64,000 bases of DNA from Caproicibacterium lactatifermentans. Lineage in GTDB: Bacteria; Bacillota; Clostridia; Oscillospirales; Acutalibacteraceae. This document shows, piece by piece, positions 7,448 to 40,056 of the stretch (the stretch's first letter is position 1; each line of letters starts with the position of its first letter). The position numbers and the translations under genes were made by a program. The notes under the pieces were generated by a model. That model did not search any database. It worked only from the letters and a program-made list of their open reading frames with translations, and was not told the origin of the DNA. The stretch is from positions 744,001-808,000 of the forward strand of contig NZ_CP046051.1 of the NCBI RefSeq assembly GCF_013315815.1, given 5' to 3'.

Positions 7448-7507
7448 AACAAAAAAGCGGATTTACAAAATATTCACTTACATTTTTTGGGAAGGAAGTT
7501 GTAAAAA

Positions 7508-8449: not shown

Positions 8450-8503
8450 TTTTTGAGCCGATAGTTGATATAAATCCTTTCATCAACTGAATCTCTCCGT
8501 TTT

Positions 8504-8537
8504 AGCTCTCCGGGCAGCACCGGAGAGCTTCTTTTTG
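8504..8537 (+). terminator. terminator of the ribose operon
   Basis: AGCTCTCCGG (8504-8513) pairs with CCGGAGAGCT (8520-8529), followed by TCTTTTTG. Confidence 0.85.
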
Positions 8538-8900
8538 TCTGTTTTGCAGGACAGCATACAAATTCCTGCCCAAAAGGGGGAAAACGCCTGCAAATCCAAC
8601 AGGAATTCTCCTTGACAATCTATTTGTATGGGAGTACCATTTCCTCTATGGGGAACGATGAAAATATATTTGATTTTTCATAATCTAGTTAAAAAATAGA
8701 CGGAAATTTTCTTTTTACAGTGCGGATATTGCTTTTTGGTCAAACCACTTCCTTAATAGAGCTTTTTTGTATAGCCAGACGGGATTATGCTGGTTTTGGC
8801 GGCCTGCTCTGCTTGTCCTGCAAAAGGTTTTCTGCGCTGATTGGTGTGAGCAATTTTTACCGGTATTGGCCGGTAACTATCATCTGGGAGGGAAAAATTC
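8538..8900 (+). promoter_or_regulatory. promoter and long leader of the CBS-pyrophosphatase gene
   Basis: TTGACA (8612-8617), 17-bp spacer and TACCAT (8635-8640) form a plausible promoter, giving a leader of about 255 nt. The leader contains a small hairpin (TACCGG/CCGGTA around 8856-8875) and short, unconvincing reading frames. I do not recognise a known riboswitch; a fluoride aptamer was considered and not seen. The ribosome binding site is GGGAGGG at 8887-8893. Confidence 0.5.
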
Positions 8901-10556: not shown

Positions 10557-10592
10557 TTTCTGCAAGCTGCCCTGCAGGAAAGGGACGAAAAT

Positions 10593-11402
10593 GTGAACAG
10601 GCTGCTTTGCTTTGATTATGATATGACATTATTGGATCACGCGACCGGCGAGGTGCCGGACAGTACGCTGCGAGCGATTGACCTGCTGCGTCCACAGTGG
10701 AAAATTGTGATTGCGACAGGGCGCGACATGGCACAGCCCGAAAGCACCTACGGCCTTACGACGGTCCATCCGGACGCTGTTGTGGAGATGAACGGTGCCC
10801 GTATCCGTGCAGAAGGAAAGATTCTGTACCGCTATTATTTGCCGCAGGCACTGCTGCAGACGGTCATTCTGTTTGGCCGTCAGCAAAAAATGTGCATCAG
10901 CTGTGTAAAGGACGGCATCTATTATACAACAGATTCGTCACTGCTGGAAAGCTTTGTTCACACCTGTGTCCGGAAAGAAAAAATTCAGGTTCGTCCGGCG
11001 GAGCAGGTGTTTGGTCAGCCTGTCAGTGCACTGACACTGGTCGGCAGTGAACCGGAAGCTCGCCTGCTGGAACAGCGCTTCCCACAGGTGAGGGTGCCGC
11101 TCTTCGGAAAAAAGCGCGGTGCAGATATTATCCCGCGCACACTTTCCAAGGCGGAGGGCGTGCGGCGGCTGCTGGATTATTATGACTCGGACTTTAGCAG
11201 CGTTATGTTTTTTGGTGACAGCGGCAATGATTTGGAACTAATCAAAGCGGCCAGCATCGGTGTAGCCATGGGCAACGCAATAGAACCTGTCAAGCGATCG
11301 GCAGACTATGTGACAAGTGCGGTAGGGGACAACGGCATTTGGAACGCACTTCGGCATTTTCATCTTCTGCCGGCAGCCGAAAAACAGGATGAAAAAGCAT
11401 GA
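10593..11402 (+). CDS. Cof-type HAD-IIB family phosphatase
   Basis: Predicted cytoplasmic sugar-phosphate or nucleotide phosphatase of 269 residues. HAD motif I is LCFDYDMTLLD (residues 5-15), with nucleophile D8 and acid D10. A Cof-type cap domain follows, and the C-terminal motif IV is VMFFGDSGNDLELIKAASIGVAMGNA with metal-binding aspartates. The start is GTG at 10593: the overlapping ATG at 10591 hits a stop at once, and AAAGGGAC lies just upstream. It follows the pyrophosphatase with a 36-base gap and no terminator, so the two are probably co-transcribed. The substrate is unknown. Confidence 0.85.
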   Translation: MNRLLCFDYDMTLLDHATGEVPDSTLRAIDLLRPQWKIVIATGRDMAQPESTYGLTTVHPDAVVEMNGARIRAEGKILYRYYLPQALLQTVILFGRQQKMCISCVKDGIYYTTDSSLLESFVHTCVRKEKIQVRPAEQVFGQPVSALTLVGSEPEARLLEQRFPQVRVPLFGKKRGADIIPRTLSKAEGVRRLLDYYDSDFSSVMFFGDSGNDLELIKAASIGVAMGNAIEPVKRSADYVTSAVGDNGIWNALRHFHLLPAAEKQDEKA

Positions 11403-11530
11403 GTAGCCGGGTGGTTTCATACAATGAGAAGCAGAGCTACCGCTGTGGATGGCATCACTTGTAAAAATAAAGTGAAAGACAGAAAAAATATGCCGATTTT
11501 GGCATCATTTCTGAAATAAAGAAAGTAAAG

Positions 11531-11560
11531 GCGGAAAAAATCGGCCGTTTTCCGCTTTTT
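11531..11560 (+). terminator. terminator after the HAD phosphatase
   Basis: GCGGAAAA (11531-11538) pairs with TTTTCCGC (11548-11555), then five T. The rest of the gap from 11403 holds nothing recognisable. Confidence 0.8.
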
Positions 11561-11574
11561 CCCCATTTCTGCCG

Positions 11575-11603
11575 TTGACTTTTCCACAAGGCGGGCATAT
11601 AAT
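11575..11603 (+). promoter_or_regulatory. glutamine synthetase promoter
   Basis: TTGACT (11575-11580), 17-bp spacer, perfect TATAAT (11598-11603). Transcription should begin near 11610. Confidence 0.8.
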
Positions 11604-11622
11604 AACGGTAATGACAGTAAAG

Positions 11623-11655
11623 GCGCTGTGGGGCGTGTTCCCTATAGCGCTTTTT
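11623..11655 (+). promoter_or_regulatory. terminator-like hairpin in the glutamine synthetase leader (possible attenuator)
   Basis: An 11-bp stem (11623-11633 with 11640-11650, two G-U pairs), a 6-nt loop, then TTTTT. It begins only about 13 nt after the predicted start of transcription and lies 49 nt before the GS start codon, so it could terminate most transcripts unless overcome. The loop CGUGUU has G at position 4 but not A at position 1, so it does not match the ANTAR hexaloop rule. Confidence 0.6.
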
Positions 11656-11703
11656 CTCTGTTTACAGGTTTTAAGAAAGATAAAACTGCATGGAGGGATT
11701 TGC

Positions 11704-13794
11704 ATGAGTACGGTTCCAGAATTGTTCGGCAGCCTGGTCTTTAATGAAACGGTCATGAAAGAGCGCCTGCCGAAAGACACGTTTCGGGCGCTGATGAAGA
11801 CCCGCAAGGAGGGCCAGCCCCTTGTTCCGGACGTGGCCAACGTAGTGGCAAACGCCATGAAGGACTGGGCAGTTGAAAACGGCTGCACCCACTTTACGCA
11901 CTGGTTCCAGCCAATGACAGGCATCACTGCTGAAAAGCACGACAGTTTCATCTATCCGGTGGACGGCGAAAAGGTCATTATGGAGTTTTCTGGCAAAGAG
12001 CTTATCAAGGGCGAGCCGGATGCCAGCTCTTTTCCTTCCGGCGGTCTGCGCGCTACCTTTGAGGCACGCGGCTATACCGCATGGGACCCCACCAGCGATG
12101 CTTTTATTAAGGACAATACCCTGTGCATTCCCACTGCATTCTGTTCTTATACCGGCGAAGCATTGGACAAAAAAACACCACTGCTGCGTTCCATGAACGC
12201 TATCAACAAGCAGGCACTGCGCATCCTGCGCCTGTTCGGTGATACCACAACACAGCGTGTAAACACCAATGTAGGTCCGGAGCAGGAATATTTCCTGATT
12301 GACCGTGATATGTACTGCAAGCGCCGTGATTTGGTTTACACTGGCCGTACTTTGTTCGGCGCAAAGCCGCCGAAGGGGCAGGAGATGGAGGACCACTACT
12401 TTGGTGTTCTCAAGCCGCGTGTCAAGGCCTTTATGGATGACCTGGACAACGAATTGTGGAAGCTGGGTATTCTTGCGAAGACAGAGCATAACGAAGTAGC
12501 TCCTTCTCAGCACGAATTGGCACCTATTTACACCGATACCAATGTTGCTGCCGACCACAACCAGCTGACAATGGAAATCATGAAGAAAGTGGCCGCCCGC
12601 CACAACCTGGCCTGCCTGCTGCATGAAAAGCCCTTTGAGGGTGTCAACGGTTCCGGCAAACACAACAACTGGTCCCTTTCCACTGACGGCGGCAGCAACC
12701 TGCTGGACCCGGGCGATTCGCCGCGTGAAAATGCACAGTTCCTTTTGTTCCTTGTCTCTGTCATTCAGGCGGTAGATGAGCATCAGGACCTGCTCCGCCT
12801 GTCCGTTGCCAGCGCAGGCAATGACCACCGTTTGGGCGCCAACGAAGCGCCGCCGGCAATTATCTCCATTTTCTTGGGCGATGAGCTAACCACCGTTCTG
12901 GATTCTATCGATCAGAACAAGCCCTATGCACAGAAGGATAAAGAAGTACTGGAAATCGGTGTGGACGAACTGCCGCCGCTGCCGAAGGACACAACGGACC
13001 GCAACCGTACATCTCCGTTTGCCTTTACCGGCAATAAATTTGAATTCCGTATGCTCGGTTCTACCGTTTCCATTGCCTGCCCGAACATGATGCTGAACAC
13101 CATTGTGGCCGACGTGCTGGAACAGTATGCTGACCGTCTGGAAAAGGCCAAGGACTTTAACAAAGAACTGAATCACATTATCCGTGAAGCATACCATGAC
13201 CATAAGCATATTGTCTTTAACGGCGATGGCTATACCGATGAATGGATTGCCGAGGCGAAAAAGCGCGGCCTGCTGAACCTGTCCTCTACTGCGGAAGCAC
13301 TGCCGTACTACACGCGTCCTGAAAATGTTGCTTTGTTTGAACACCACAGCGTGCTGACAAAGAATGAAGTGTATTCCCGCTGCGAGATTCAGATGGAGAA
13401 CTACACAAAGCAGATACATATCGAGGCGGAAACCATGGTCGATATGATTTATAAGGACATTTTGCCGGCGGCTAACCGCTATGTCAGTGCACTGAGCAAT
13501 ACCGTCAACGCAAAGGCCACTGCCTGCAGCGATGCTTCTTCCACATTTGAGAAGGACACCATCCAGACACTTTCCAAACTGAGCGATTCCCTTTATGCGG
13601 AAACGCGTGCACTGGAAAAGAATGTGGCTGGCGAAGGCAAAGGGAATATTCAGGAGCAAGCCTCCTATTCCCGCGATACGCTGTTCATGCAGATGGAGAA
13701 AACACGCAGAATTGCAGACCAGATTGAGCCTTTGGTAGCGAAAGAGTACTGGCCGTATCCCACCTATGGCGAGATGCTGTTCAGTGTGGTATAA
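11704..13794 (+). CDS. glnN: glutamine synthetase type III
   Basis: Makes glutamine from glutamate, ammonia and ATP; cytoplasmic dodecamer. It has 696 residues, the large GSIII size, against about 450 for type I. The GSIII N-terminal domain ([18 protein letters not shown]...) is followed by the catalytic core with [18 protein letters not shown], the [18 protein letters not shown] metal-site region, [18 protein letters not shown] (ATP/glutamate loop) and [11 protein letters not shown]. The C-terminal helical domain ends [12 protein letters not shown]. The true start is 11704, with GGAGGGA at 11692-11698; upstream in-frame codons overlap the promoter. The leader hairpin suggests control by premature termination. 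Confidence 0.95.
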
Positions 13795-13815
13795 GTATCG
13801 GCTTTGTTTCAAAGA

Positions 13816-13855
13816 AAAGGCGGATTCCACAAATGGTGGGAACCTGCCTTTTTTG
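13816..13855 (+). terminator. terminator after glnN
   Basis: Arms AAAGGCGGATTCCAC (13816-13830) and the GTGGGAACCTGCCTTTT side (from 13837), followed by T. Further on, CCCCGC/GCGGGG (about 13948-13964) forms a small hairpin in the ftsH leader. Confidence 0.75.
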
Positions 13856-29185: not shown

Positions 29186-30262
29186 TCACCTGCACAGTGC
29201 TGCGAAGGTGTTTTTGCCAGCTAGCCCATCAGCAGATAGGCCCGCGCTGCGCTGAAAGCTGCGGATGGCGAACTCTGTGTGTTCTCCAAAAATGCCGTCA
29301 ATATCTTGGCAGTTCCGTCCGTGTGCCAGTAGGGCGGCCTGCAGGGACAAGACGCTTTCGTTGTTGTTGCCGTGCCGCAGGGTATGGACAGCTGCCGCTG
29401 TTTTTGGTCCCCAAATGCCATCCACGGTAAGTCCCGCGCCATAGGCTTGATTACAGCCGCGCTGAACACTCATAATCAGTGCTCTACGGGTTGCCGGACC
29501 GTAAACGCCGTCCACCGTTAGGCCAGCACCGCGGGCATTGTACCATGCCTGCGCTTGCCGCACCAAAGAGTTGCCGGTGGTCTGGGTCAGAGCAGCCGCG
29601 GTATCAGCGCTTTTTGTCCAGCCATTTAGACCCTTACGACGTACTAGCTGCGGATAATCTATGTAGGCCACGTCCGTATCGCAGCCGCATGTGCCGATGT
29701 TGGCGCCGGGGCAGCTGCCGCCGGTTTCCGGAAAATTGTTTTGCCAAATGCCGCAGGGCTTGTCCGGCTTATTGACACCTGGTCGTGCATACCAGAAAAC
29801 GTAATTTTCCAATTCATTTGGGTAAATCCTTGTTTCGTACCAGTCCTCATTGACATAATAACCCGGCAGATAGTTCTTCTGCCGGAGGCCGCTGCATACG
29901 TTTTTTGTAATATCCGTCAGCATGCGGCGGCTGGGCATGCCGTGCCGTTTCCGGTAACCGTCTGCGTCTTCCATATCGAGAATAACGGGGTACAGCGGTT
30001 TCTTGTCATGCAGCAACCGCAATAGGTGTGCCAGCTCGCTTTCCGCACTGCTGAACGTCAGTGCATAGCTGTACAGGTATGCACCCCACGGGATACCCAG
30101 CCGGTCACATTCGACGACATTGCGTGCAAATTGGGTGTCGTCCTGGTCTGTGCGGTCACTGCCGTAGCCCGCACGCAGCATGGCAAACTGAATGCCAGCA
30201 GCCTTTGCCTTTGCCCAGTCAACGGTGCCATTGTGAGAACTGACATCAATGCCATTTTTCAT
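29186..30262 (-). CDS. GH25 lysozyme endolysin with peptidoglycan-binding repeats
   Basis: 358 residues. The GH25 (Chalaropsis-type) muramidase domain begins KNGIDVSSHNGTVDWAKAK and contains the catalytic acidic pair region LDMEDADGYR; it runs to about residue 195. The C-terminal half holds peptidoglycan-binding repeats: AGLTVDGVYGPATRRAL, AGLTVDGIWGPKTAAAV, DIDGIFGEHTEFAIRSFQ and GLSADGLAGKNTFAAL. There is no signal peptide, as expected for a holin-dependent phage endolysin. The start at 30262 has GAGGAGG upstream. No capsid, tail, integrase or packaging genes are nearby. Confidence 0.9.
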   Translation of the reverse strand: MKNGIDVSSHNGTVDWAKAKAAGIQFAMLRAGYGSDRTDQDDTQFARNVVECDRLGIPWGAYLYSYALTFSSAESELAHLLRLLHDKKPLYPVILDMEDADGYRKRHGMPSRRMLTDITKNVCSGLRQKNYLPGYYVNEDWYETRIYPNELENYVFWYARPGVNKPDKPCGIWQNNFPETGGSCPGANIGTCGCDTDVAYIDYPQLVRRKGLNGWTKSADTAAALTQTTGNSLVRQAQAWYNARGAGLTVDGVYGPATRRALIMSVQRGCNQAYGAGLTVDGIWGPKTAAAVHTLRHGNNNESVLSLQAALLAHGRNCQDIDGIFGEHTEFAIRSFQRSAGLSADGLAGKNTFAALCR

Positions 30263-30550
30263 AAAAATCCTCCTCTGTTTGGCTGCTGCCACAGGCAGGA
30301 CAGCCTGCTAATATGTGGTATGCCACGGTTTTGCAGAGCTGCCTGCCGCCGCTGCCGAAGAAGTGAGAAAAACACTTCTCTGCTATTCCTGAAAAACGGA
30401 TGTGCAAATTCGCTGTTTTAGGCGAATCTTTAAAAATTTTTTCAAAACAGCCTGCCACTTTCGCTTCTTCTTCATAATATAAAAGGGTATAGAAACCTTT
30501 TTCTGAACGATATGGCAGATTTTCGATACCTGAAAATTTAGGGGTTCCCA
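30263..30550. other. intergenic region upstream of the lysis cassette
   Basis: No convincing gene. A 101-codon minus-strand frame overlaps the lysozyme start but lacks a ribosome binding site and looks non-coding. AT-rich TATATTATG-like sequence on the minus strand near 30475 could hold the cassette promoter, but no clear -35 was found. Confidence 0.4.
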
Positions 30551-30579
30551 TTTACAAGGAGAAAAAGGCGTATTATAAT
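30551..30579 (+). promoter_or_regulatory. promoter of the CrtO-like gene
   Basis: TTTACA (30551-30556), 17-bp spacer, TATAAT (30574-30579). Confidence 0.7.
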
Positions 30580-30641
30580 ATTATTTATTAAGAGGACCAT
30601 GTCTTTTAATAGTGGATTATAGCGGAAGGAGGGAGAAACAG

Positions 30642-31145
30642 ATGCTTCAGTCAATGAATTATTTAACTATGCTGGTGACCAATGTGCTGGTAATAGCAGT
30701 TTGGCACGGGACTACTTTGTTAATGTCTACACATTTGCCAAATTCCTATTTTCAGCCGACCTCCGCACAGTTCCAACCATGGAAGTGGGAAAAGGGAGGC
30801 CGCTGGTATCGGGACCACCTGCATATTAACGACTGGAAGGACCGTGTTCCACAGTTTATCAGCCAGGGTGGCTTTTCCAAACGGCACCTGACCAATCTTT
30901 CTCCGGAATATTTAGGCACCTTTATTGTGGAGACCTGCCGGGGTGAGTGGACACATACATGGAACCTTGGGTGTGTGTTTGTCGTTTTGCTGATGAATCA
31001 ATCGATAGTGGGAATTACTTTTTCAATTTTGATTTTTATGGGGAACGGTCCGTGTGCGGTCATTCAGCGCTATAATCGTTTTCGTTTAGTAGCTTTGCGT
31101 GATCGTCTGCAGCGTGAAACTGCGCGTATTCCCGCTGCCACATGA
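30642..31145 (+). CDS. CrtO-like membrane protein (glycosyl-4,4'-diaponeurosporenoate acyltransferase family)
   Basis: 167-residue protein with a TM helix near the N-terminus and two near residues 108-145. The central soluble motif FQPWKWEKGGRWYRDHLHINDWKDRVPQFISQGGFSKR and the later YLGTFIVETCRGEWTH match the CrtO family, named after the staphyloxanthin acyltransferase. No carotenoid genes (crtM, crtN, crtP, crtQ) are in the window, so the staphyloxanthin function should not be assumed. The start at 30642 has GAAGGAGGGAG upstream. A terminator-like hairpin separates it from the next gene. Confidence 0.75.
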   Translation: MLQSMNYLTMLVTNVLVIAVWHGTTLLMSTHLPNSYFQPTSAQFQPWKWEKGGRWYRDHLHINDWKDRVPQFISQGGFSKRHLTNLSPEYLGTFIVETCRGEWTHTWNLGCVFVVLLMNQSIVGITFSILIFMGNGPCAVIQRYNRFRLVALRDRLQRETARIPAAT

Positions 31146-31157
31146 AAATGATAAAAT

Positions 31158-31196
31158 AAAAGGCCGCAGACAACAGGATGTGTCTGCGTCCTTTTT
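31158..31196 (+). terminator. terminator between the CrtO-like gene and the surface protein gene
   Basis: AAAAGG-CGCAGACA (31158-31172) pairs with TGTCTGCG-CCTTTTT (31181-31196). It ends just before the next ribosome binding site, so partial read-through is likely. Confidence 0.7.
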
Positions 31197-31212
31197 GGGG
31201 GAGCAATGCTCT

Positions 31213-32532
31213 ATGAAACGGAAAAAGCATGGACGATGGAAATGGGTTCTATTGGCTGCGACAGCCGCAGCAGTGGTATGCTGTATTTCGGTTTATGCCA
31301 ATCTGCGCAGTGGGGACGGCCCGTCTTTCCAGCTACAGACCAGTTCTGCATGGTGCCGTTCAGGCGATAAAGTGCAGGTACAGTTATCTGCTTCTCCCGG
31401 ACGCACGGCACCGGGTGCTTTTCGGGCACTTCTGCAGTATGATTCTGATGCGTTTGAGTACTGTTCCAAGGAAGGTGCACCGCAGACCTACGGAGCAGAT
31501 ATTTATGTATGGCAGTCCAATCCTCTGGTAACGGTCTATACCTGCAATACACAGCAGAGTGCAGCGCCCCAGCTTGCCGGAAATGTAATCACCTATACAT
31601 TTCGGGTGCGGCAGGGTACATCTGCCGGCCGCTATTCATTTCGGCTGTCCACGGACGAAATCTGTGACTTTGCGGGCAAGTCCCTGCCGCCATGCGCACA
31701 GACGGAAACATCTGTTTCTGTGACAAGTGCGGAAAGTTCGGCGTCGTCCGCCGTGTCATCAAACATATCGTCTGCCAGTTCCAGTCTGCCTTCTTCTGCT
31801 TCCGTTATACAGCAGCCGCATTTGTCAGCGCTGGAGCTGGAAGACCATACATTAGGGCAGCTGCGGCCGACTTTTCAACCGGACATCACCTTTTATCAGG
31901 TAACGGTGCCGCAGAGCTGTACGGACCTGTGGCTGCGTACCCAGCAGTCGGCCGGCACAGCGGTCAGCGCTGACCGGCATTCCCTGAAAGCGGCCGGTTC
32001 CGACACTGTTATACAGGTGACTGCGCAAACGGCGGGCAGCCATACTAAAACCGTTTACACCATTTTGGTGCACCGGTCACATGATGCTTCTTCGGCCGGA
32101 ACGGTGGGAGCACAGACAAAGAAAAGAAAAACGGAGCGGGCACCATCAGCTGTATCTTCCAAAAAGGAAAAGCGGACTTCTTCTGCTTCCAAACAAACAA
32201 CGCATAAAAAGAAGACGTCCGCCTCTTCGTCCAAAGTTTCCAAGAAAACAAAACGTTCATCCTCTTCTGCGGCGTCTGATACGGAGGCATATGCGCCTTC
32301 CGGCATTTCGCAGAAGCCCGGTGCTCAGCAGACAGGCGGGCTGCAGGCCCGGCACTCTGACGGCTTCAGCGGCTTTCAGACGGGTGTTTTGGTGACATTG
32401 CTCATTGCCTGCGCCGCCACGGCAGTCGTCTTGGTGGTGCGCGCTGTTTGCCGAAAGCGAAAAGCGGAGGGTAAAGCGGAGCAAGAAGCTAATGATACCA
32501 ACAAAACCGGACCGGACGAACAAGGAAAATAA
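31213..32532 (+). CDS. membrane-anchored surface protein with cohesin-like and cadherin-like domains
   Basis: 439 residues. An N-terminal signal/anchor (about 10-30) is followed by a beta-sandwich resembling cohesin or bacterial Ig-type domains (VQVQLSASPGRT... FRALLQYDSDAFEY... ITYTFRVRQGTSAGRYSF; about 40-165). After a Ser-rich linker comes a cadherin-like beta-sandwich (LSALELEDHTLGQLRPTFQP... TVIQVTAQTAGSHTKTVYTILVHR; about 210-292). A long Ser/Lys-rich stalk leads to a C-terminal TM helix near 398-418 and a charged tail. No LPxTG motif is visible. The ribosome site is GGGGGAG. Likely displayed on the cell surface; partner unknown. Confidence 0.7.
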   Translation: MKRKKHGRWKWVLLAATAAAVVCCISVYANLRSGDGPSFQLQTSSAWCRSGDKVQVQLSASPGRTAPGAFRALLQYDSDAFEYCSKEGAPQTYGADIYVWQSNPLVTVYTCNTQQSAAPQLAGNVITYTFRVRQGTSAGRYSFRLSTDEICDFAGKSLPPCAQTETSVSVTSAESSASSAVSSNISSASSSLPSSASVIQQPHLSALELEDHTLGQLRPTFQPDITFYQVTVPQSCTDLWLRTQQSAGTAVSADRHSLKAAGSDTVIQVTAQTAGSHTKTVYTILVHRSHDASSAGTVGAQTKKRKTERAPSAVSSKKEKRTSSASKQTTHKKKTSASSSKVSKKTKRSSSSAASDTEAYAPSGISQKPGAQQTGGLQARHSDGFSGFQTGVLVTLLIACAATAVVLVVRAVCRKRKAEGKAEQEANDTNKTGPDEQGK

Positions 32533-32540
32533 CAGCAATA

Positions 32541-32590
32541 AAAAGGGCAGACTGCTGCCACAATGCGCAGCAGCAGTCTGCTCTTTCTTT
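32541..32590. terminator. bidirectional terminator
   Basis: AAAGGGCAGACTGCTGC pairs with GCAGCAGTCTGCTCTTT; serves both converging genes. Confidence 0.85.
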
Positions 32591-32603
32591 GTTATGTGTT
32601 TAT

Positions 32604-33716
32604 TTAGTTGCGATGCTTTCGGCGGAGAATACAGGCGGCGACACCGGTAACAGCCGCTGTTTTAATGAGGATAGAAAGCATTTGCTCGGGGGTAGCCGGT
32701 GTCTTGTCCAGAAATAGGTCCCGCGCCGGGTGGGAAGGACCATGGCCGAATAGGTCAAGGTAGGATACCAGCTTTGTTTCATAATGGCGTGGGTTTGCTT
32801 CGTGCAGTGTAAACATACGCACGGCATGGTTGGCCCCCGGACCGTATGTGTTAAAGCCACAGCAGGGGGTATAGCCGGCATCTATGCCGTGCAGAGCACC
32901 CCAGAAGGAATTGCGGTGGTCATGTCCCACGAACAGTCCCAAAACATCTCCCTTTTCTGTCAGGGCGTTCAGTTCTCCAGAGTTAAATTCCGGCACACAG
33001 GGCGGTTCTCCCAGTTCACCGCTGTACACTTTGCTCTGGTCCAGAATATAGCGGTGGCCGCGGCGGCTGCCGAATGCCTGAATGGCATGCGGCGTGCCTT
33101 TTGGTACTTCCTGCAGAAATTCATAAAATTCCGGTACTGGAATATGCTGAAACACCAAAGAGGGAAGGCAGTTTCCCCCGTTTTTTAAGGCAAGGCGGTC
33201 TCGTTTTTCCCGGTACCAGTCCAGCTGCTTTGGCAGCACGGGGGCAAAACGGTTCGCGTTGCTGTCAATCAAGTATACGGCAAAGGCAGGCCTGCCATTT
33301 TGTCCGGAGATGGTTACGCAGCTGGTGCCGCAGTCCTCCGGGTTTTCTATTGGATTGATACATTCCGGATACTGTAAATAATAGTACATTTGCTGCTGCT
33401 TGGAAAGGCCGGCTTCCGTGTCGTGATTGCCGAATGTAACCAAAAACGGAATGTGGTGCTTTATAATGGGTTCCATCACTTTATGCAGGGTGGCAGCGGC
33501 TTTTCCTTCGCTGCCCGGCATATGAAAATAGACACTGTAGCCTTTCAGCTGGTCGCCGGTCAGGACAATGAGATCCGGATTTTCCCGGTCCAGCGCAGTG
33601 TCCAAAAATTCCAATGTATCCTCACATACCATAGGACTTTCCTGTATATCGGCAATCTGCATAATGCGGAATGTTCCATCTTCATGAAAGCAAAGCGGTA
33701 CGTCTTTTCTGCTCAT
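32604..33716 (-). CDS. metallophosphoesterase (calcineurin-like) with C-terminal membrane helix
   Basis: 370-residue phosphoesterase of the DCR2/purple-acid-like group. Metal-binding blocks are in order: FRIMQIADIQE (D-x-Q/H variant), LIVLTGDQL (GD), VTFGNHDTEA (GNHD), LVFQHIPVPEF (H) and LFVGHDHRNSF (GHDH). The tail MLSILIKTAAVTGVAACILRRKHRN forms a C-terminal TM segment (about 345-362) with a basic end, so it is probably membrane-tethered. There is no N-terminal signal, which suggests a cytoplasmic face. AAGAGGA precedes the ATG. The substrate is unknown. Confidence 0.85.
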   Translation of the reverse strand: MSRKDVPLCFHEDGTFRIMQIADIQESPMVCEDTLEFLDTALDRENPDLIVLTGDQLKGYSVYFHMPGSEGKAAATLHKVMEPIIKHHIPFLVTFGNHDTEAGLSKQQQMYYYLQYPECINPIENPEDCGTSCVTISGQNGRPAFAVYLIDSNANRFAPVLPKQLDWYREKRDRLALKNGGNCLPSLVFQHIPVPEFYEFLQEVPKGTPHAIQAFGSRRGHRYILDQSKVYSGELGEPPCVPEFNSGELNALTEKGDVLGLFVGHDHRNSFWGALHGIDAGYTPCCGFNTYGPGANHAVRMFTLHEANPRHYETKLVSYLDLFGHGPSHPARDLFLDKTPATPEQMLSILIKTAAVTGVAACILRRKHRN

Positions 33717-33940
33717 ATAAGCATTTCCTCTTTTCCTTCTTGTCCTCTAAAGCACTGAAATTTTGCGGGAAACCTGTACATATATACTATGCCATAAATG
33801 GCGGCCTCCTGCAAGCCCTGCGGCGGCTAAAAACCGCAGCATCTTTTGTGGAAAACAGGGGAAAGCGTTCCTTTGTTTTTTCTTTCGGAAGATTTGTGCT
33901 ATAATAACGGCAGCAAATATTGCAGAGAGGGGTATGCCGT

Positions 33941-34651
33941 ATGGAGAAGCCGGAGGAAAAGAAGGCATTTGGTTCTGCCTTTGGAACGGTATGGCGTTTT
34001 GAAAGCCGACAGTCCGTTTTGCTGCCGCGGCAGCAGCCGGAACGTATGGAAAAGCAGCTTGCTGTCTTTTTTCCAGGCACTGGATACAGCTGTGACCAGC
34101 CGCTGCTTTACTACGCCCGTCGGGCAGCGGAGCAGGCCGGCTGTGACGTTTTGCCGCTGACTTATCAGGTTGTGCTGGACCGGAACTGCCGGAATATGAC
34201 ACAGGAAATTCAGCACTGCCTTTCACAGGCACTTCATGCGGCGGGTGAAGCGCTGCGGGCTGTTTTCCGCCGTCAGCCATACCGGGAACTTTTCTTTTTC
34301 AGCAAAAGTTTCGGCACAGTGGTGGCCGGCGGACTGGAACGCCGGCTGACCGGGAAAAAGGTTCATCAATTTTTCCTGACGCCGTTGGAAGCAACACTGC
34401 CCTATATGCAGGCACATCCCTGTTTTGCCGCTTCCGGTACGGCGGATTCATGGGTAACCACGGAAATACAGCAAAAAATGCAGCATACAGCGAGCGTACA
34501 GATGTACCTGTTCCCTGGTGCAAACCATTCGCTGGAGATACCCGGCAATGTAGCGGCCAGTGTGCAGAATATGCAGCTTCTGCTGGAAGCATATACTGCA
34601 TTTTTATGTGGAAATCATCGGAATAACAGAAAGGATACAGGAAATATATGA
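33941..34651 (+). CDS. alpha/beta-hydrolase-like protein
   Basis: 236 residues, soluble. An early strand-loop LAVFFPGTGYSCDQPLLYYA resembles the oxyanion segment of alpha/beta hydrolases. The nucleophile elbow is probably LFFFSKSFGTVVAGGL (about 121-136; S-x-S-x-G instead of the classic G-x-S-x-G), and the late FPGANHSLEI supplies the catalytic His (about 198-207). GAGAGGGG lies upstream of the ATG, with a TATAAT at 33900-33905. Its stop overlaps the next ATG (ATGA), so it is translated together with the dehydratase-like gene. Substrate unknown. Confidence 0.7.
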   Translation: MEKPEEKKAFGSAFGTVWRFESRQSVLLPRQQPERMEKQLAVFFPGTGYSCDQPLLYYARRAAEQAGCDVLPLTYQVVLDRNCRNMTQEIQHCLSQALHAAGEALRAVFRRQPYRELFFFSKSFGTVVAGGLERRLTGKKVHQFFLTPLEATLPYMQAHPCFAASGTADSWVTTEIQQKMQHTASVQMYLFPGANHSLEIPGNVAASVQNMQLLLEAYTAFLCGNHRNNRKDTGNI

Positions 34652-35916
34652 ATCAGGCTGTCGAAAAATTCGGCCGTATGGTGGACAATCAGCTGCCGGA
34701 CCACCCCAAAACAGCGCGGAATCTGCTGACAACCGCCTATCGGCTGAATGGCTGGGCGGGGAAGCACCTTTTCAAAAAGACCACACCGGCGCGTCTTGCG
34801 CTGGCCGATGTGTGCAACAACGCCATTTTACAGCCTTTTGACCACCCGCAGCAGAGCGCAATGGTCAGCCTGTTCACGCCGTGTGAGCTGCTGCAGATGT
34901 TTGGGCTGGCACCCATGTTTCCGGAGGCACTGGCCTGCTATATTTCCGGTGCGGGCGCGGAACGCGGTTTTATTGAAGCGGCGGAAGCTTCCGGCATTCC
35001 GGAAACATTCTGTTCCTACCATAAAATTTTGCTGGGCACCGCACAGACCGGCATTCTGCCGAAGCCGCGCTTCATTTTTAACACAACGCTTGCCTGCGAT
35101 GCCAACACGCTTACGTTTCGCAGATTGGCTGAGTTTTACGGCGTGCCGCATTTGGTTTTGGACATACCCCAGACACAGGATGAGGCGGCCGTCACTTATG
35201 TAGCGGAACAGCTGAAGGATTGTGCCCGCAGTATCAGCCGACTGCTGCACCGCCCGCTGGACGAAGCAAAACTGTGCGCCAGTGTTGCCCGCGGTCGGCA
35301 GACATTGGATACTTATCAGCAGTATCTGGAAGAACGCGCCCGAAAATCCATGCCGGATGAGATGACTTCGGAAATGTACGCGGTCTTTGCGCTGCACGTG
35401 CTGCTGGGAACACCGGCGGCGCTGCAGTTTGCGCAGGGTATTTTGAAGGAAGCAAAAGCAGCGCCGTCCCGCGGAAAGGAACTGCGTCTATTGTGGGTAC
35501 ACACTTTGCCAAATTTGGACAATGCCATGATAGACTTGCTGGACTTTAACCCATCCTGTCAAATCCTTGCGGCGGACCTTTGCTTTGATGTACCGGAACT
35601 GCCGGAAACAGATGACCCATGGCAGACGATGGCGCGGCGGCTGGTACAAAATCACTTAAATGGACCAGCACAGCGGCGCATTGACGCTGTTTTGCAGCAG
35701 GCAAAGCGGTTGCAGCCGGACGGCATTGTCTGGTTTTGCCACTGGGGCTGCCGCCAAACCAGCGGTGCCAGCCAAATGGGGCGGGCAGAACTGGAGAAGG
35801 CGGGATTTCCCACGTTGGTGCTGGACGGTGATGCCTGTGACCGTTCCAACTGCCCGCCTGGGCAGATGACCACTCGTATGCAGGCATTTTTGGAGATGCT
35901 GGAGGAAAAAGCATGA
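34648..35916 (+). CDS. 2-hydroxyacyl-CoA dehydratase-family (HgdB/DCCP-like) iron-sulfur protein
   Basis: 422 residues of the HgdB/BcrB superfamily. Candidate cluster ligands stand in the expected blocks: FCSYHK (C122), TTLACDAN (C150) and WFCHWGCRQTSG (C364, C368), with DGDACD (C397) near the end. Known relatives are 2-hydroxyacyl-CoA dehydratase subunits, benzoyl-CoA reductase subunits and double-cubane cluster proteins (DCCP); all take electrons from an ATP-driven activator. Start and stop both overlap neighbours by four bases (ATGA). No CoA-transferase, acyl-CoA dehydrogenase or Etf genes surround it, which makes a classic dehydratase pathway less likely than a DCCP-like reductase. Confidence 0.82.
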   Translation: MNQAVEKFGRMVDNQLPDHPKTARNLLTTAYRLNGWAGKHLFKKTTPARLALADVCNNAILQPFDHPQQSAMVSLFTPCELLQMFGLAPMFPEALACYISGAGAERGFIEAAEASGIPETFCSYHKILLGTAQTGILPKPRFIFNTTLACDANTLTFRRLAEFYGVPHLVLDIPQTQDEAAVTYVAEQLKDCARSISRLLHRPLDEAKLCASVARGRQTLDTYQQYLEERARKSMPDEMTSEMYAVFALHVLLGTPAALQFAQGILKEAKAAPSRGKELRLLWVHTLPNLDNAMIDLLDFNPSCQILAADLCFDVPELPETDDPWQTMARRLVQNHLNGPAQRRIDAVLQQAKRLQPDGIVWFCHWGCRQTSGASQMGRAELEKAGFPTLVLDGDACDRSNCPPGQMTTRMQAFLEMLEEKA

Positions 35917-37559
35917 TTGCGTACACCTGTAAATATACACCGATTGAACTTTTTGCGGGCTTTGGGGAAGCACCGAAACGGCTGAACCCGACCGTCCACG
36001 CGTTTTCCGAGGCTGACCGTCTCAGCCACCGCAACCTGTGCAGTTTTGCGCGGGCCCTGCTGCAGGCCTGCCGGGAGCACGGTATCAAAAATCTGGTGCT
36101 TACTTCCTGCTGTGATTCTCTCCGGCGGGTAGGGGACGTGCTTTCAGCCGCTGCTCCGGACAGCTTTGTCTTTATGTTGGACTTGCCGCGGGCTGACGGC
36201 CCCTGCGCCCGTCAGCGCTATGCGGCCGAGCTGCACCGCTTGATTGACGCCTGCAGTGTATGGTTTGGCGTGCCGTTTGACCTGCAAAAGTGTCTGGCAG
36301 CCTTTGCTCCGGCGGAACCGACCGGTCAGACGGACCATCTTACCCTATTGGGAGCGCGATCCAATCCGGCACTGCTGCAAATGCTTCGGCAGGAGCTGCC
36401 GCTGCCGGTGGAGGACCGCACCTGTGTGGGAAACCGCGGCCTGCAGGTTCCACCTGCGGGGCAGACTTTGGACCAATTTCTTTTGTGGTATGCTGGTGCA
36501 TTGCTCCAGCAGATTCCCTGTATGCGCATGACCAACGCGGCACCGCGGCGGCAGCTGCTGGAGGACCCGTATGTAAAGGGAATTCTGTACCATACCATTC
36601 AGTTTTGTGATTATTACGGTTTTGAATACGCTGATTTGCAGAAACAAACGCACCTGCCGCTTTTGAAACTGTCAACCGACGGCACCGACGGCGCGGAAGA
36701 GCAGCTGCGCACCCGAGTGCAGGCGTTTGCCGAAAGCCTGCACGCTGTCGTGCCGAAAAAGCGGACGATGACTGCCAAAACATCCACTGGATACTATGCT
36801 GCCGGAATTGACAGCGGTTCTACCAGTACGAACGTGGTTATTCTGGACGAACACCGCAAAATGATAGGCAGCTCTATTGTGCCGACCGGTGCACACGCGG
36901 CCCGCAGTGCCGATGCAGCGCTGCAGCAGGCACTGCTGCGGGCGGGCATTTCTCGCGAACAGCTGGCGGATGTGGTCACGACCGGTTATGGCCGTGCCTA
37001 TATTGGTGCGGGCGGGCATGATGTGACGGAAATCACCTGCCACGCGCGGGGTGCCCATTTTTTGAACCCATCTGTGCGTACAATTATTGATATTGGCGGA
37101 CAGGACAGCAAGGCGATTCGGCTGGATGAAGACGGAAATGTGCGCAGCTTTGTGATGAACGACAAGTGTGCCGCAGGTACTGGCCGTTTTCTGGAGATGA
37201 TGGCGCACGCGCTGGAGCTTTCTATGGACGAAATGAGCGTCTGCGGCCTGCACTGGAAAGAGAATATTGTCATTAGCAGTATGTGCACGGTTTTTGCAGA
37301 GAGCGAGGTTGTTTCCCTTGTTGCGCAGAACAAACAGACCGCCGACATTGTGCATGGGCTAAACGTGTCCGTGGCGGTGAAGGCGGCCGCTCTAGCTGCG
37401 CGGGTGGACCCACAGCCGCGCTTTATGATGACCGGCGGCGTTGCCTCCAACCGGGGCGTAGTGAAAGCGCTGGAGGAAAAGCTGGGCGCACCGCTGCTTG
37501 TGCTGCCGGAACACCAGCTGTGCGGCGCACTGGGGGCTGCATTGATTGCTTTTGACTAA
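35913..37559 (+). CDS. fusion of an HgdB-like domain and an HgdC-type activator ATPase
   Basis: 548 residues in two parts. Residues about 1-280 resemble an HgdA/HgdB dehydratase subunit, with Cys in LVLTSCCDSLRR (C66/C67), ADGPCAR (C98) and QFCDYYGFEY (C232). Residues about 295-548 are a complete ASKHA activator: AGIDSGSTSTNVVIL (phosphate 1), IIDIGGQDSKAI (phosphate 2), the cluster Cys in NDKCAAGTGRFLEMM (C419) and SSMCTVFAESEVVSL (C458), and MTGGVASNRGVV (adenosine). The activator would inject low-potential electrons into the HgdB-like partner at the cost of ATP. Having a dehydratase-like domain fused to the activator is unusual. ATGA overlap with the previous gene. Confidence 0.85.
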   Translation: MIAYTCKYTPIELFAGFGEAPKRLNPTVHAFSEADRLSHRNLCSFARALLQACREHGIKNLVLTSCCDSLRRVGDVLSAAAPDSFVFMLDLPRADGPCARQRYAAELHRLIDACSVWFGVPFDLQKCLAAFAPAEPTGQTDHLTLLGARSNPALLQMLRQELPLPVEDRTCVGNRGLQVPPAGQTLDQFLLWYAGALLQQIPCMRMTNAAPRRQLLEDPYVKGILYHTIQFCDYYGFEYADLQKQTHLPLLKLSTDGTDGAEEQLRTRVQAFAESLHAVVPKKRTMTAKTSTGYYAAGIDSGSTSTNVVILDEHRKMIGSSIVPTGAHAARSADAALQQALLRAGISREQLADVVTTGYGRAYIGAGGHDVTEITCHARGAHFLNPSVRTIIDIGGQDSKAIRLDEDGNVRSFVMNDKCAAGTGRFLEMMAHALELSMDEMSVCGLHWKENIVISSMCTVFAESEVVSLVAQNKQTADIVHGLNVSVAVKAAALAARVDPQPRFMMTGGVASNRGVVKALEEKLGAPLLVLPEHQLCGALGAALIAFD

Positions 37560-37561
37560 AA

Positions 37562-37609
37562 AAGGCCGGGCCCTGCAGCACTTTTGCCGCAGGGCCCGGA
37601 TGCTTTTTA
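37562..37609. terminator. terminator of the hydrolase/HgdB/HgdC operon
   Basis: Perfect 11-bp arms CCGGGCCCTGC (37566-37576) and GCAGGGCCCGG (37589-37599), then TGCTTTTTAA. Confidence 0.85.
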
Positions 37610-37623
37610 ATTAAATGTATGCT

Positions 37624-38211
37624 TTACAGCAGGGATGCCGTGTGTGCCAGCAAATCTACGCAGCGGTCAATTCCCCAGTAGGAGCTGTTTAAGGAAATAT
37701 CGTAGTTTTCCTGGTTTCCCCATGCCTTTTCGGTGTAGCAGCTGTAGTATCTGCGGCGTTCCTGATCGCTTTTGCGAATCATCAGCTGGGCGTCCTGTGC
37801 GGAAAGATTGTGCAGGCGGCGAATGCGCTGAATACGGTCCTGCAGCGGAGCATGAATAAATACCCGCAGCAGACTGACATCATCGTCCAGCAGAATCACG
37901 TCGGAACAGCGGCCAATGATAATGCAGTCTTCCTGGTGCGCAATGCGGTGAATGATTTTTGCCTGTGCAACGAACAGTGTGTCACTGTTGGAAAGGCCAA
38001 AGTAGGTTTTACGCTCATCTTCCGGAACAGCACTGTCGTAGCGTTCATCGGAAGCTTTCAGCGTGTCCACACTCAGCCCGCTTTCTTGGGCGGCGCGGGT
38101 GATGAGCTCTTTGTCATAGAAAGGCAGGCCAAGTTTTTTGGCAAGCTTTTCGCTGATTTCATGGCCGCCGCTGCCAAATTGTCTGCTGATGGAAATAACA
38201 TGATGTGACAT
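37624..38211 (-). CDS. cytidylate kinase-like family protein
   Basis: 195-residue P-loop protein of the cytidylate-kinase-like group (PF13189). The N-terminus MSHHVISISRQFGSGGHEISEKLAKKLG contains the P-loop variant R-Q-F-G-S-G-G-H. Further landmarks are YDKELITRAAQESGLS, CIIIGRCSDVIL (nucleotide-binding) and the basic LRVFIHAPLQDRIQRIRR lid segment. Genuine CMP kinases are annotated separately, so the nucleotide substrate is uncertain. The start at 38211 is chosen because AAAGGGG precedes it; the frame's earlier ATG lies inside that ribosome site. Confidence 0.82.
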   Translation of the reverse strand: MSHHVISISRQFGSGGHEISEKLAKKLGLPFYDKELITRAAQESGLSVDTLKASDERYDSAVPEDERKTYFGLSNSDTLFVAQAKIIHRIAHQEDCIIIGRCSDVILLDDDVSLLRVFIHAPLQDRIQRIRRLHNLSAQDAQLMIRKSDQERRRYYSCYTEKAWGNQENYDISLNSSYWGIDRCVDLLAHTASLL

Positions 38212-38303
38212 CAAGAAAACCCCTTTCATGGTCCAACTCTGGAGATAGATTGATTATACAATAAATCTGACGAAAATGCACGCATTTTATGAAATTGATA
38301 TAC

Positions 38304-38348
38304 AAAAAGCAGCTGCCGGTTTTTTACAATCAGCAACTGCTTTGTTGG
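38304..38348 (-). terminator. minus-strand terminator with no obvious gene in front of it
   Basis: On the minus strand AAAGCAGTTGC (38333-38343) pairs with GCAGCTGCTTT (38306-38316, one G-U), followed by TTTTTG. It would end a leftward transcript coming from 38350-38660, where no leftward gene is visible. Confidence 0.5.
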
Positions 38349-38377
38349 TATAGGAGTTTAAAAAAAGGAAGAAAATT

Positions 38378-38419
38378 ATGAAAAAGTGTATGAAAAGTCC
38401 CCCACTGGGGAGCTTGTAA
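38378..38419 (+). CDS. micro-ORF 1 (MKKCMKSPPLGSL)
   Basis: AAAAAAGGAAG (38361-38371) precedes ATG 38378; the frame reads MKKCMKSPPLGSL and stops with TAA. The nine codons from the second ATG (38390) match micro-ORF 2. Too short to call with confidence; could instead be a repeated RNA element. Confidence 0.4.
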   Translation: MKKCMKSPPLGSL

Positions 38420-38493
38420 TCTTTGCCGTGCGGAAAGGCACGGCGGGGAGAGGAAAAAAGTTATGAAAAGTCCCACGCTGGGGAGCTTGTAGT
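38390..38493 (+). repeat. pair of 31-bp direct repeats flanking a hairpin
   Basis: The blocks at about 38389-38420 and 38462-38493 share TATGAAAAGTCCC, then a short variable part, then CTGGGGAGCTTGTA. Between them GCCGTGC (38425-38431) pairs with GCACGGC (38438-38444). Within each block CCC/GGG can form a small hairpin. Confidence 0.7.
38463..38492 (+). CDS. micro-ORF 2 (MKSPTLGSL)
   Basis: GGGAGAGG (38446-38453) lies nine bases before ATG 38463; the frame reads MKSPTLGSL and ends in TAG. The single amino-acid change from copy 1 and the swap TAA/TAG keep start, frame and stop intact, which is what selection on a peptide would leave. Confidence 0.4.
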   Translation: MKSPTLGSL

Positions 38494-38710
38494 TTGTCTG
38501 TGCACCTGTCGGTTCGGTATTCCGTCCATTCCGAAGGTCTGCACAGTGTATATCAGTTGGAATCTTTTATTCCTGTTCTCTTGGAACAATTCTAGTATAT
38601 TGAAATTTTATGTACAGAATTTTAATCACAGCCGAAGATTCGGTCAAGTTTACGTGAAGAAAATGTGAACCCTTTCCAGAAAAGATTCAAAAAACTGTGT
38701 GCCCGTGAAG

Positions 38711-38739
38711 TTGTCATTTTTCTGCCTATGCGCTATAAT
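38711..38739 (+). promoter_or_regulatory. promoter of the xpaC-telA operon
   Basis: TTGTCA (38711-38716), 17-bp spacer, TATAAT (38734-38739). It lies downstream of the micro-ORFs, so they are on a different transcript or a longer one. Confidence 0.75.
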
Positions 38740-38796
38740 AAAAGAAATTATGCATTGCGGCATATGCCGCACAAGCAGGGCCTTCCGGAGGGTATC

Positions 38797-40056
38797 ATGG
38801 GGAAGAAGGATTATTCTAAAATAGGACAGGAAATCAGCCACGCAGTACGGGAAGCCATGCGTGCGGCTGATTTTGAAAATATCGGACGTACCGTAGAAGA
38901 TAATGTAAAGGGTTTTGCCGATGACATCAATGAAGTTTTCGGCGGGCCTGGCAGCGCCGGACATCGTCCGCCGCACCCGTATGCGCCGCCGACACCGCCG
39001 AAGGGGACACCGGACAACTGTCCGCCAAATGGGCAGAGACCACCGCAACAGCCTATTCGGCCCTCTTATTCTTCGCCCAATCTGCACAACAGCCGAATTC
39101 CGGGTGCAATATCCGGCATGACATGGGCGATAGCTGGTCTGGTCATGGGTGTGCCGCTTTTGATTGCGGATATCGCCATGGTGGCGGCCGCGGCTACGGG
39201 CATGGTGGCTTTTTCGGAGTTCATGGTTGCCGGGGCGGTTACGTTTTCTATGACAGCGGCGGCTTTTTTTGCTGTGGGGCACGGTATCCGCAAGCGCCGT
39301 CAGGTCCGCCGTTTCCGGCGCTATCGGGATGCACTGGACGGTGCCGCGTTTGGTATGGTGGACCAGCTGGCGGACTCTGCCGGCGAAACACATGAACGCG
39401 CCGTGAAAGATTTAAAGAAAATGATTATGGACGGCGTTTATCCGCAGGGACATCTGGATAAGGACCAAACCTGCTTTATGATTGATGATGAAACATATCA
39501 GGCATATCTGGACGCGGAGAAAAACTACAACGCCCGTGAAGAGGCTGCAAAAGAAAAAGAGGAAAAGAAAAAAGAGAACCCGCAGCAGGCACAACTGGAG
39601 GAAGTTCGGCAGGAGGGAAATCGATATTTGCAGGAAATTCAGGCTGCGAATGATGCGATTCCAGGAAAAGAAGTATCCGCCAAGCTGGACAAACTGGAAC
39701 AGGTCACCGGCCGTATCTTTCAGTGTGTGGAACAGCACCCGGAGAAGCTGCCGGAAATTCGCCGGTTCATGCGCTACTATCTGCCCACGACCTTAAAACT
39801 GGTGAAATCTTATCAAGAATTTGATACACAGCCGGTGCAGGGTGAGAATATCACGAAGGCAAAACAGGAAATTGAACGCTCGCTGGATACCATCAATACT
39901 GCTTTTGCAAATCTGTTGGACAGCCTTTTTGCAAATGATGTACTGGATGTTTCAGCGGATATTTCCACATTGGAAACCATGCTGAAACAGGAGGGACTGA
40001 CCGGCAGCGACTTTACCCCAAAGCAGCCGAAAATGGAGTCTACGGAAGAAAAATAA
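38797..40056 (+). CDS. xpaC: XpaC family protein (5-bromo-4-chloroindolyl phosphate hydrolysis protein)
   Basis: 419 residues. The N-terminal part is soluble, with a Pro-rich linker (about 50-90). Two TM helices follow (about 107-158, MTWAIAGLVMGVPLLIADIAMV and the next). The C-terminal XpaC domain is helical and charged (EERKKKENPQQA-type coiled coil, then LEQVTGRIFQCVEQHPEKLPEIRRFMRYYLPTTLKLVKSYQEF), matching the family. Despite the historic name, enzymatic activity is unproven; the partner TelA and this gene form a widespread stress-linked pair. GGAGG precedes the ATG at 38797. telA follows after 53 bases. Confidence 0.85.
   Translation: MGKKDYSKIGQEISHAVREAMRAADFENIGRTVEDNVKGFADDINEVFGGPGSAGHRPPHPYAPPTPPKGTPDNCPPNGQRPPQQPIRPSYSSPNLHNSRIPGAISGMTWAIAGLVMGVPLLIADIAMVAAAATGMVAFSEFMVAGAVTFSMTAAAFFAVGHGIRKRRQVRRFRRYRDALDGAAFGMVDQLADSAGETHERAVKDLKKMIMDGVYPQGHLDKDQTCFMIDDETYQAYLDAEKNYNAREEAAKEKEEKKKENPQQAQLEEVRQEGNRYLQEIQAANDAIPGKEVSAKLDKLEQVTGRIFQCVEQHPEKLPEIRRFMRYYLPTTLKLVKSYQEFDTQPVQGENITKAKQEIERSLDTINTAFANLLDSLFANDVLDVSADISTLETMLKQEGLTGSDFTPKQPKMESTEEK

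Follow-up and report, generated by a model that had tools for sequence, protein, structure and literature searches.

The stretch of DNA considered here (the window) comprises 64,000 nucleotides of Caproicibacterium lactatifermentans (G000:C1:744001-808000, in a genome of one contig of 1.99 Mb) and carries three plus strand genes, here termed H1, H2 and H3, of which H2 and H3 are predicted to encode an iron-sulfur enzyme related to the benzoyl-CoA reductases (BCRs) and 2-hydroxyacyl-CoA dehydratases (HADs). Each neighbouring pair overlaps via ATGA, confirming the observation made in a preliminary description of the locus. The genes, and the parts of H3, are as follows:

33941-34651, + strand: H1, an alpha/beta serine hydrolase of 236 residues with the triad S123/D169/H196 (profile match, triad conservation, genus-level operon partner)
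34648-35916, + strand: H2, an HGD-D catalytic subunit (alpha, BzdO/HadB-like) of 422 residues (profile, alignment, tree, fold)
35913-37559, + strand: H3, a shortened HGD-D double-cubane domain plus ASKHA activator, 548 residues (open reading frame, profiles, predicted fold)
35913-36746, + strand: H3 N-terminal domain, residues 1-278, a predicted double-cubane relay without the middle helical domain
36747-36791, + strand: flexible linker of H3, residues 279-293 (predicted local distance difference test score below 50 at 283-290)
36792-37556, + strand: H3 C-terminal domain, a BcrAD/BadFG/HgdC-type activator (profiles, fold, tree)

Domain architecture of H2 and H3

The matches of H2 (214.6 bits, across residues 75-418) and H3 (119.2 bits) to PF06050 are both far above chance, so bearing out the earlier assignments of H2 and of the N-terminal domain of H3 as HgdB-like. 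The HGD-D part of H3 is not full length, a central stretch of the profile (positions ~127-222) being gone; the earlier reading of H3 as an HgdB-like/activator fusion stands for the presence of both domains (PF06050; PF01869/TIGR00241) and needs correction in that the first of them is shortened. The activator domain scores over curated cut-offs (TIGR00241, 253.1 versus 125.4 bits; PF01869, 203.5 versus 31.5 bits), its best activator match in the PDB being MbdQ. The H2 fold aligns with that of the double-cubane cluster protein (DCCP) from residue 17-18, i.e. deeper into the N-terminal helices than it does with HadB or BzdO.

The sole other activator match over the cut-off in the genome is a 972-residue protein with two BadF-type activator domains (G000:C1:1033274-1034965). 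An electron-transfer flavoprotein (Etf) pair is also encoded outside the window (G000:C1:1767149-1768450), and the absence of Etf genes from the window therefore tells little about the organism.

Predicted cluster ligands and active site

Passages of PMC11971306 give the ligands of the BzdN [8Fe-9S] double cubane as Cys36/73/100/263/293/327 (sites 1 to 6 below), and those of the BzdO [4Fe-4S]-OH2 cluster as Cys95/128/380. The corresponding residues of H2 and H3, those with BzdO or BzdN counterparts being assigned by alignment and conservation, are:

34924-34926, + strand: H2 Glu93, in alignment at the YPE/FPE glutamate position of HadB and MbdO
35011-35013, + strand: H2 Cys122, predicted [4Fe-4S] ligand (BzdO Cys95)
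35095-35097, + strand: H2 Cys150, predicted [4Fe-4S] ligand (BzdO Cys128)
35749-35751, + strand: H2 Cys368, predicted [4Fe-4S] ligand (BzdO Cys380), in the motif HWGC
35928-35930, + strand: H3 Cys6, predicted double-cubane ligand (BzdN Cys36)
36039-36041, + strand: H3 Cys43, predicted double-cubane ligand (BzdN Cys73)
36108-36113, + strand: H3 Cys66-Cys67, Cys67 aligning with BzdN Cys100, Cys66 being an additional invariant cysteine
36423-36425, + strand: H3 Cys171, predicted double-cubane ligand (BzdN Cys263)
36519-36521, + strand: H3 Cys203, predicted double-cubane ligand (BzdN Cys293)
36606-36608, + strand: H3 Cys232, predicted double-cubane ligand (BzdN Cys327)
37167-37169, + strand: H3 Cys419, predicted activator [4Fe-4S] ligand (90/90 loci)
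37284-37286, + strand: H3 Cys458, predicted activator [4Fe-4S] ligand (90/90 loci)

In an alignment of 68 proteins, all six BzdN ligand columns are cysteine in 12/12 H3 rows and in 12/12 DCCP rows (12 of the 32 DCCP matches found), while H2 rows have cysteine at sites 2, 3 and 6 in 12/12; a site-4 cysteine occurs in the H2 of the window and in none of the other 11. Four of the five HAD-beta rows have cysteine only at sites 2, 3, 5 and 6, and the fifth only at site 5, site 1 lying outside the piece used for HadC. H3 thus has every cysteine of the double-cubane set and H2 those of the single cluster, such that the predicted cofactor complement is the BzdNO combination, not that of the 2-hydroxyacyl-CoA dehydratases or of homodimeric DCCP.

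Conservation was counted over the 80 best (nearest) related loci, out of at least 587, initially with a coverage filter (H2 from 59/80 loci and H3 from 74/80, plus the window) and then in a recount including 10 further loci, in which H2 was found in 87 and H3 in 90/90. No substitution was seen at H2 C122, C150 or C368 (Cys wherever the site is covered, 86 loci) or at H3 C6, C43, C66, C67, C171, C203, C232, C419 or C458, the counts for the nine cluster cysteines of H2 and H3 ranging over 86-90 loci; the few gaps at these sites all fall in truncated or broken loci (partial or broken loci: L045, L075, L025, L038). Of the H2 cluster cysteines proposed at the outset, C122, C150 and C368 are retained; C364 (Cys in 61/85 loci) and C397 (51/85) are not conserved and are rejected as ligands. 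The activator cysteines C419 and C458, also proposed then, hold good; they are 39 residues apart and align with those of MbdQ and of the HadBC activator. The cluster cysteines of HgdC are likewise 39 residues apart.

The H2 active site has its own signature. Glu93 is glutamate in 85/85 loci having a residue there, and is predicted to correspond to the acid/base Glu65 of BzdO, judging by spacing and by MbdO and HadB, the BzdO piece in the alignment being without this site. Tyr124 corresponds to BzdO Tyr97, which touches the thioester oxygen (in the relevant part of PMC11971306). Among H2 loci, His125, Asn153, His285 and the HWGC motif are nearly or fully invariant; in HAD-alpha (7/7 rows) Ala stands for His125, Gly for His285 and NRSC for HWGC, the Asn153 column never having Asn, and the HWGC position is NRGC in BzdO and VKSC in MbdO. 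In the light of this signature it is likely that the H2 substrate differs from that of its known relatives.

Phylogeny and joint inheritance

Trees were made from chosen subsets (68 and 56 rows), the HGD-D tree having a midpoint root only. In that tree the H2 sequences group together (100/99), and the alpha subunit at loci L123/L153 joins them (99/92); together these are sister to BzdO, MbdO and HAD-alpha (100/98), so that H2 lies outside the HAD-alpha clade. The N-terminal domain of H3 likewise forms its own clade (100/99), separate from DCCP (100/99) and from BzdN plus HAD-beta (90/81). Support is weak (84/73) for the branch separating the halves of the tree, and several branches are long. 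In the activator tree the fused activators constitute one clade (99/94), next to which is the separate L153 activator (98/77); a single fusion event between activator and HGD-D domain would therefore be the simplest account of these sequences.

Pairwise distances for H2, the H3 N-terminal domain and the H3 C-terminal domain correlate with r 0.77-0.81 over 28 loci, 0/999 permutations being as high, which shows joint inheritance, not contact.

Distribution and genomic surroundings

H2 and H3 are a real, widespread two-gene module. In 78 of the best 80 loci H2 directly precedes H3, with an estimated gap of at most 200 bases in all 78 (L032 was scored from the last 34 H2 residues alone); the two exceptions are L060, the contig of which begins within H3, and L053, a truncated copy. 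A second measure, applicable to 76 loci, has the two genes abutting or overlapping (-20 to +30 bases) in 66 of them. Named sources among the best 80 include Blautia, Olsenella, Clostridium carboxidivorans, Eubacterium ramulus, a Treponema and a Leptolinea metagenome-assembled genome. Both Pfam domains are present in all 120 homologues listed, of 6861 above threshold, the rest of which may include other architectures, and those listed records that have names carry 'acyl-CoA dehydratase activase' or a similar generic label. A survey of the phylum gave matches at E 1e-90 in 29/398 genomes, own included, one match each, 25 of the 29 covering the whole fusion and 4 only its later part; in the genus, a full copy occurs in 5/11 genomes, own included, with one more copy broken by a contig end. 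Nothing was found on an H3-type fusion in the open-licence PubMed Central (PMC) literature, within which scope the module is uncharacterised.

The surroundings of the module vary between loci, and no conserved neighbour naming a substrate was seen among the neighbour open reading frames, which were picked greedily by length and for GC-rich loci seemingly gave antisense frames, so that absence is not exact; the profile scan of operon neighbours covered 20 proteins, of which L153 contributed 4 and the 58 listed neighbour reading frames 16. Given this variation, the module seems to need either no partners or only ones that are widely available. In five loci (L044, L048, L061, L063 and L087) one cluster of proteins of ~990-1160 residues is encoded 5' of H2, with a gap of 28-41 bases in four of them; that of L061 is an M16C/PreP-type peptidase.

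Three coriobacterial-type loci, L048 (5337-7915), L049 (886-3460) and L057 (3422-6008), have two complete tandem copies of H2 before one H3, all retaining the three cluster cysteines; the first copy in L057 sits in a ~1500-residue open frame together with upstream sequence. Alternative catalytic subunits working on one power unit would explain this arrangement.

The hydrolase H1 and transcription signals

The first gene had been described as hydrolase-like, which is supported by a match to PF20408 (alpha/beta-hydrolase-like; E 0.002, 18.3 bits, under the cut-off of 27) and by a conserved Ser-Asp-His triad (S123 34/34, D169 34/34, H196 32/33 in the family alignment). The H1 family is small (34 proteins found); the 90%-identity protein cluster containing H1 spans 68 contigs. 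H1 precedes H2 in 4/4 same-genus module loci retrieved with wide flanks, and was seen beside H2 and H3 only in this genus; L009, probably one of the same-genus contigs, alone among the best 80 loci has H1, which is accordingly rejected as a core part of the module. In this genus it may cleave a substrate or product of H2-H3.

The H1 reading frame as listed opens with an upstream TTG at 33920, the ATG at 33941 being the start chosen in the preliminary description. Two transcription signals flank the genes:

33897-33905, + strand: extended -10 promoter-like element TGCTATAAT, ~35 nucleotides 5' of H1 (consensus match only)
37566-37599, unstranded: strong stem-loop 3' of H3 (z -4.55), listed as terminator-like on the - strand

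Extended -10 sites of the TGCTATAAT type number 10 in the window versus 2.0 expected, and a two-hexamer sigma-70 promoter scan of 33700-37700 found none. On the + strand, a T-run starts a few bases past the stem. With the element before H1 and the very stable hairpin after H3, H1-H2-H3 look like a single transcription unit on consensus evidence. Rfam scanning at gathering scores gave 0 matches in 30000-40000 of the window and in 8/80 related loci, and a scan for anti-phage families gave no lead.

Unfused relatives and a possible substrate class

One unfused close relative was found, in genome G453 (loci L123/L153); a search with its alpha subunit of 196 genomes of the same class gave no second one, the other five matches being 22-27% identical. 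At L153 (G453:C1:4046000-4062000, 5778-13826) the order is activator, beta, alpha, then an AMP-ligase with a carrier-protein domain, with a methyltransferase gene upstream; the cluster, which also has two unassigned genes, is biosynthesis-like, and it is possible that it represents a natural-product pathway using an ATP-driven iron-sulfur reductase.

Another genome of the same genus as the window has, at L167 (G005:C1:158000-171000, 5621-12406), a BZD-like class I benzoyl-CoA reductase locus, unexpected in a fermenting clostridium. Its activators are two in tandem, of which one exceeds the bzdQ cut-off. Also encoded are a BzdN-like subunit, which has the six double-cubane cysteines and scores below the cut-off for bzdN, an alpha-like subunit, and a CoA-transferase of FadX type (under its cut-off). 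The AMP-ligase and carrier context of L153, together with the CoA-transferase of L167, suggest thioester substrates for the wider group, without being proof for H2-H3. A separate genome has two inverted HAD-type alpha/beta gene pairs (G484:C21:7906-18029).

Proposed function and alternatives

We consider it probable that H2 and H3 constitute a self-contained, ATP-driven low-potential reductase on a separate branch of the BCR/HAD group, the substrate of which is perhaps an acyl thioester. From the observed gene structure, gene pairing, predicted folds, trees, and nine cluster cysteines plus those of the activator, the following cluster types and electron path can be proposed. The activator domains of two H3 chains would form a pair sharing one [4Fe-4S] cluster, ligated by C419/C458, which would receive an electron from ferredoxin or flavodoxin. 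ATP hydrolysis would then drive the electron, at very low potential, into the [8Fe-9S] double cubane of H3 (C6/C43/C67/C171/C203/C232), from which electrons would pass to the [4Fe-4S]-OH2 cluster of H2 (C122/C150/C368). H2 would reduce its substrate, most likely an acyl thioester, by two electrons, with Glu93 as acid/base, and in this genus H1 might hydrolyse the substrate or product. According to passages of PMC11971306, the HADs have lost the double cubane, and that of BzdN plausibly stores at least two electrons; net reduction is thus the more likely chemistry for H2-H3.

Several points weigh against this proposal. The cluster types are assigned from cysteine position alone, the additional invariant Cys66 adjoins Cys67 in H3, and the L153 beta subunit has 5/6 double-cubane cysteines, so that the wider group does not share the pattern throughout. 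The BzdO His131 column is Asn153 in H2 (86/86 loci with a residue there) and Phe in MbdO, and fold scores for HAD versus BCR are tied. The module is patchy in the phylum, its varying surroundings name no substrate, and dimerisation of a fused activator on an H2-H3 pair is without explanation.

Among the alternatives, an (R)-2-hydroxyacyl-CoA dehydratase of unusual architecture, which would eliminate water and recycle its one activated electron without net reduction, survives best and is unlikely. H2 lies outside the HAD-alpha clade and has HWGC for the HAD motif NRSC, H3 has six cluster cysteines versus the reduced HAD-beta set, and the scores are below the HAD cut-offs (NF052455/NF052456; H2, 53.6 of 750 bits for HadB; H3, 25.8 of 700). 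The preliminary view that this is not a standard dehydratase is in agreement with these results.

That view went on to offer, as a fair hypothesis, a DCCP-like reductase of a small substrate; taken as a simple or inorganic compound reacting at the double cubane itself, this reading is now also improbable. The N-terminal domain of H3 does have the complete six-cysteine set and DCCP as its best PDB profile match (E 3.2e-28), and the lack of conserved pathway neighbours among those seen would suit it. However, H2 has three cysteines, not six, both proteins fall in clades separate from DCCP and score 58.1 and 59.1 of the 350 bits required by NF040772, and H2 has a BzdO-like acid/base and a tyrosine near the cluster, as expected for an organic substrate. 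On tree, cysteine map and scores, H2 is rejected as a DCCP or plain HAD; the idea of an ATP-driven reductase is kept, in altered form.

A true benzoyl-CoA (or other aryl-CoA) reductase is very unlikely, even though the predicted cluster set is the same as that of BzdNO and a role in aromatics has been guessed, in a passage of PMC9686372 (2022), for a coriobacterial two-component activase/HAD that may or may not be the present module. The operon has one activator domain versus two in BCRs, His131 is missing in H2, H2 (18.6 and 42.7 bits) and H3 (164.7) score below the cut-offs of TIGR03190/03191/03192 (453.8, 448.6 and 380.2), and a same-genus genome has the separate BZD-like locus with its two activators. 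Least likely is a system that activates some other protein or cofactor by reduction and has no small substrate of its own; this would fit an orphan module in changing surroundings but not the apparently complete H2 active site with its own invariant residues, nor the fact that no conserved client gene was seen nearby.

Comparison with known systems

If the proposed reductase is correct, the module adds a large, sequence-rich double-cubane set in cultivable anaerobes, and would give a name to an unassigned reaction of gut Clostridia and Coriobacteriia. The excerpted text of PMC11971306 (2025) has the double cubane reported only for DCCP before BzdN, and its account of reductases keeping, and dehydratases losing, this cluster rests on those few proteins. 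The fusion sets activator to relay at 1:1, so the gating of ATP-driven electrons into a double cubane becomes directly testable. More tentatively, H2-H3 may be a further BCR/HAD branch, a 'self-energised' Birch-type reductase with ATPase and double-cubane store in one polypeptide, acting on an undescribed thioester met by many gut and sediment anaerobes.

For every characterised family, at least one of the features tested sets the predicted H2-H3 enzyme apart. TudS, a 4-thiouridine desulfidase, is also a shortened superfamily member; compared by description, from part of PMC11971306, it differs in having [4Fe-5S] as its sole cofactor and in sulfur transfer, not radical chemistry. DCCP/DCCP-R (NF040772) shares the six cysteines of the H3 N-terminal domain, the two-component make-up and the H2 fold; by contrast, H2-H3 is heteromeric with one six-cysteine subunit only, has its activator fused, and is under the family cut-off. 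HadBC with HadI, and HgdAB with HgdC, are alike in alpha fold, three-cysteine cluster and activator family, and differ in having four cluster cysteines versus six in H3, in active-site signature and clade, and in lacking the fusion. The closest likeness in cofactors is to BzdNO/PQ and MbdONPQ, with a three-cysteine catalytic subunit bearing the Glu, a six-cysteine partner (BzdN; MbdN was not mapped) and an ASKHA activator. From these H2-H3 is set apart by Asn for His131, HWGC for NRGC and a separate clade, and by the single activator of H3, fused to a double-cubane subunit that has lost its middle helical domain.

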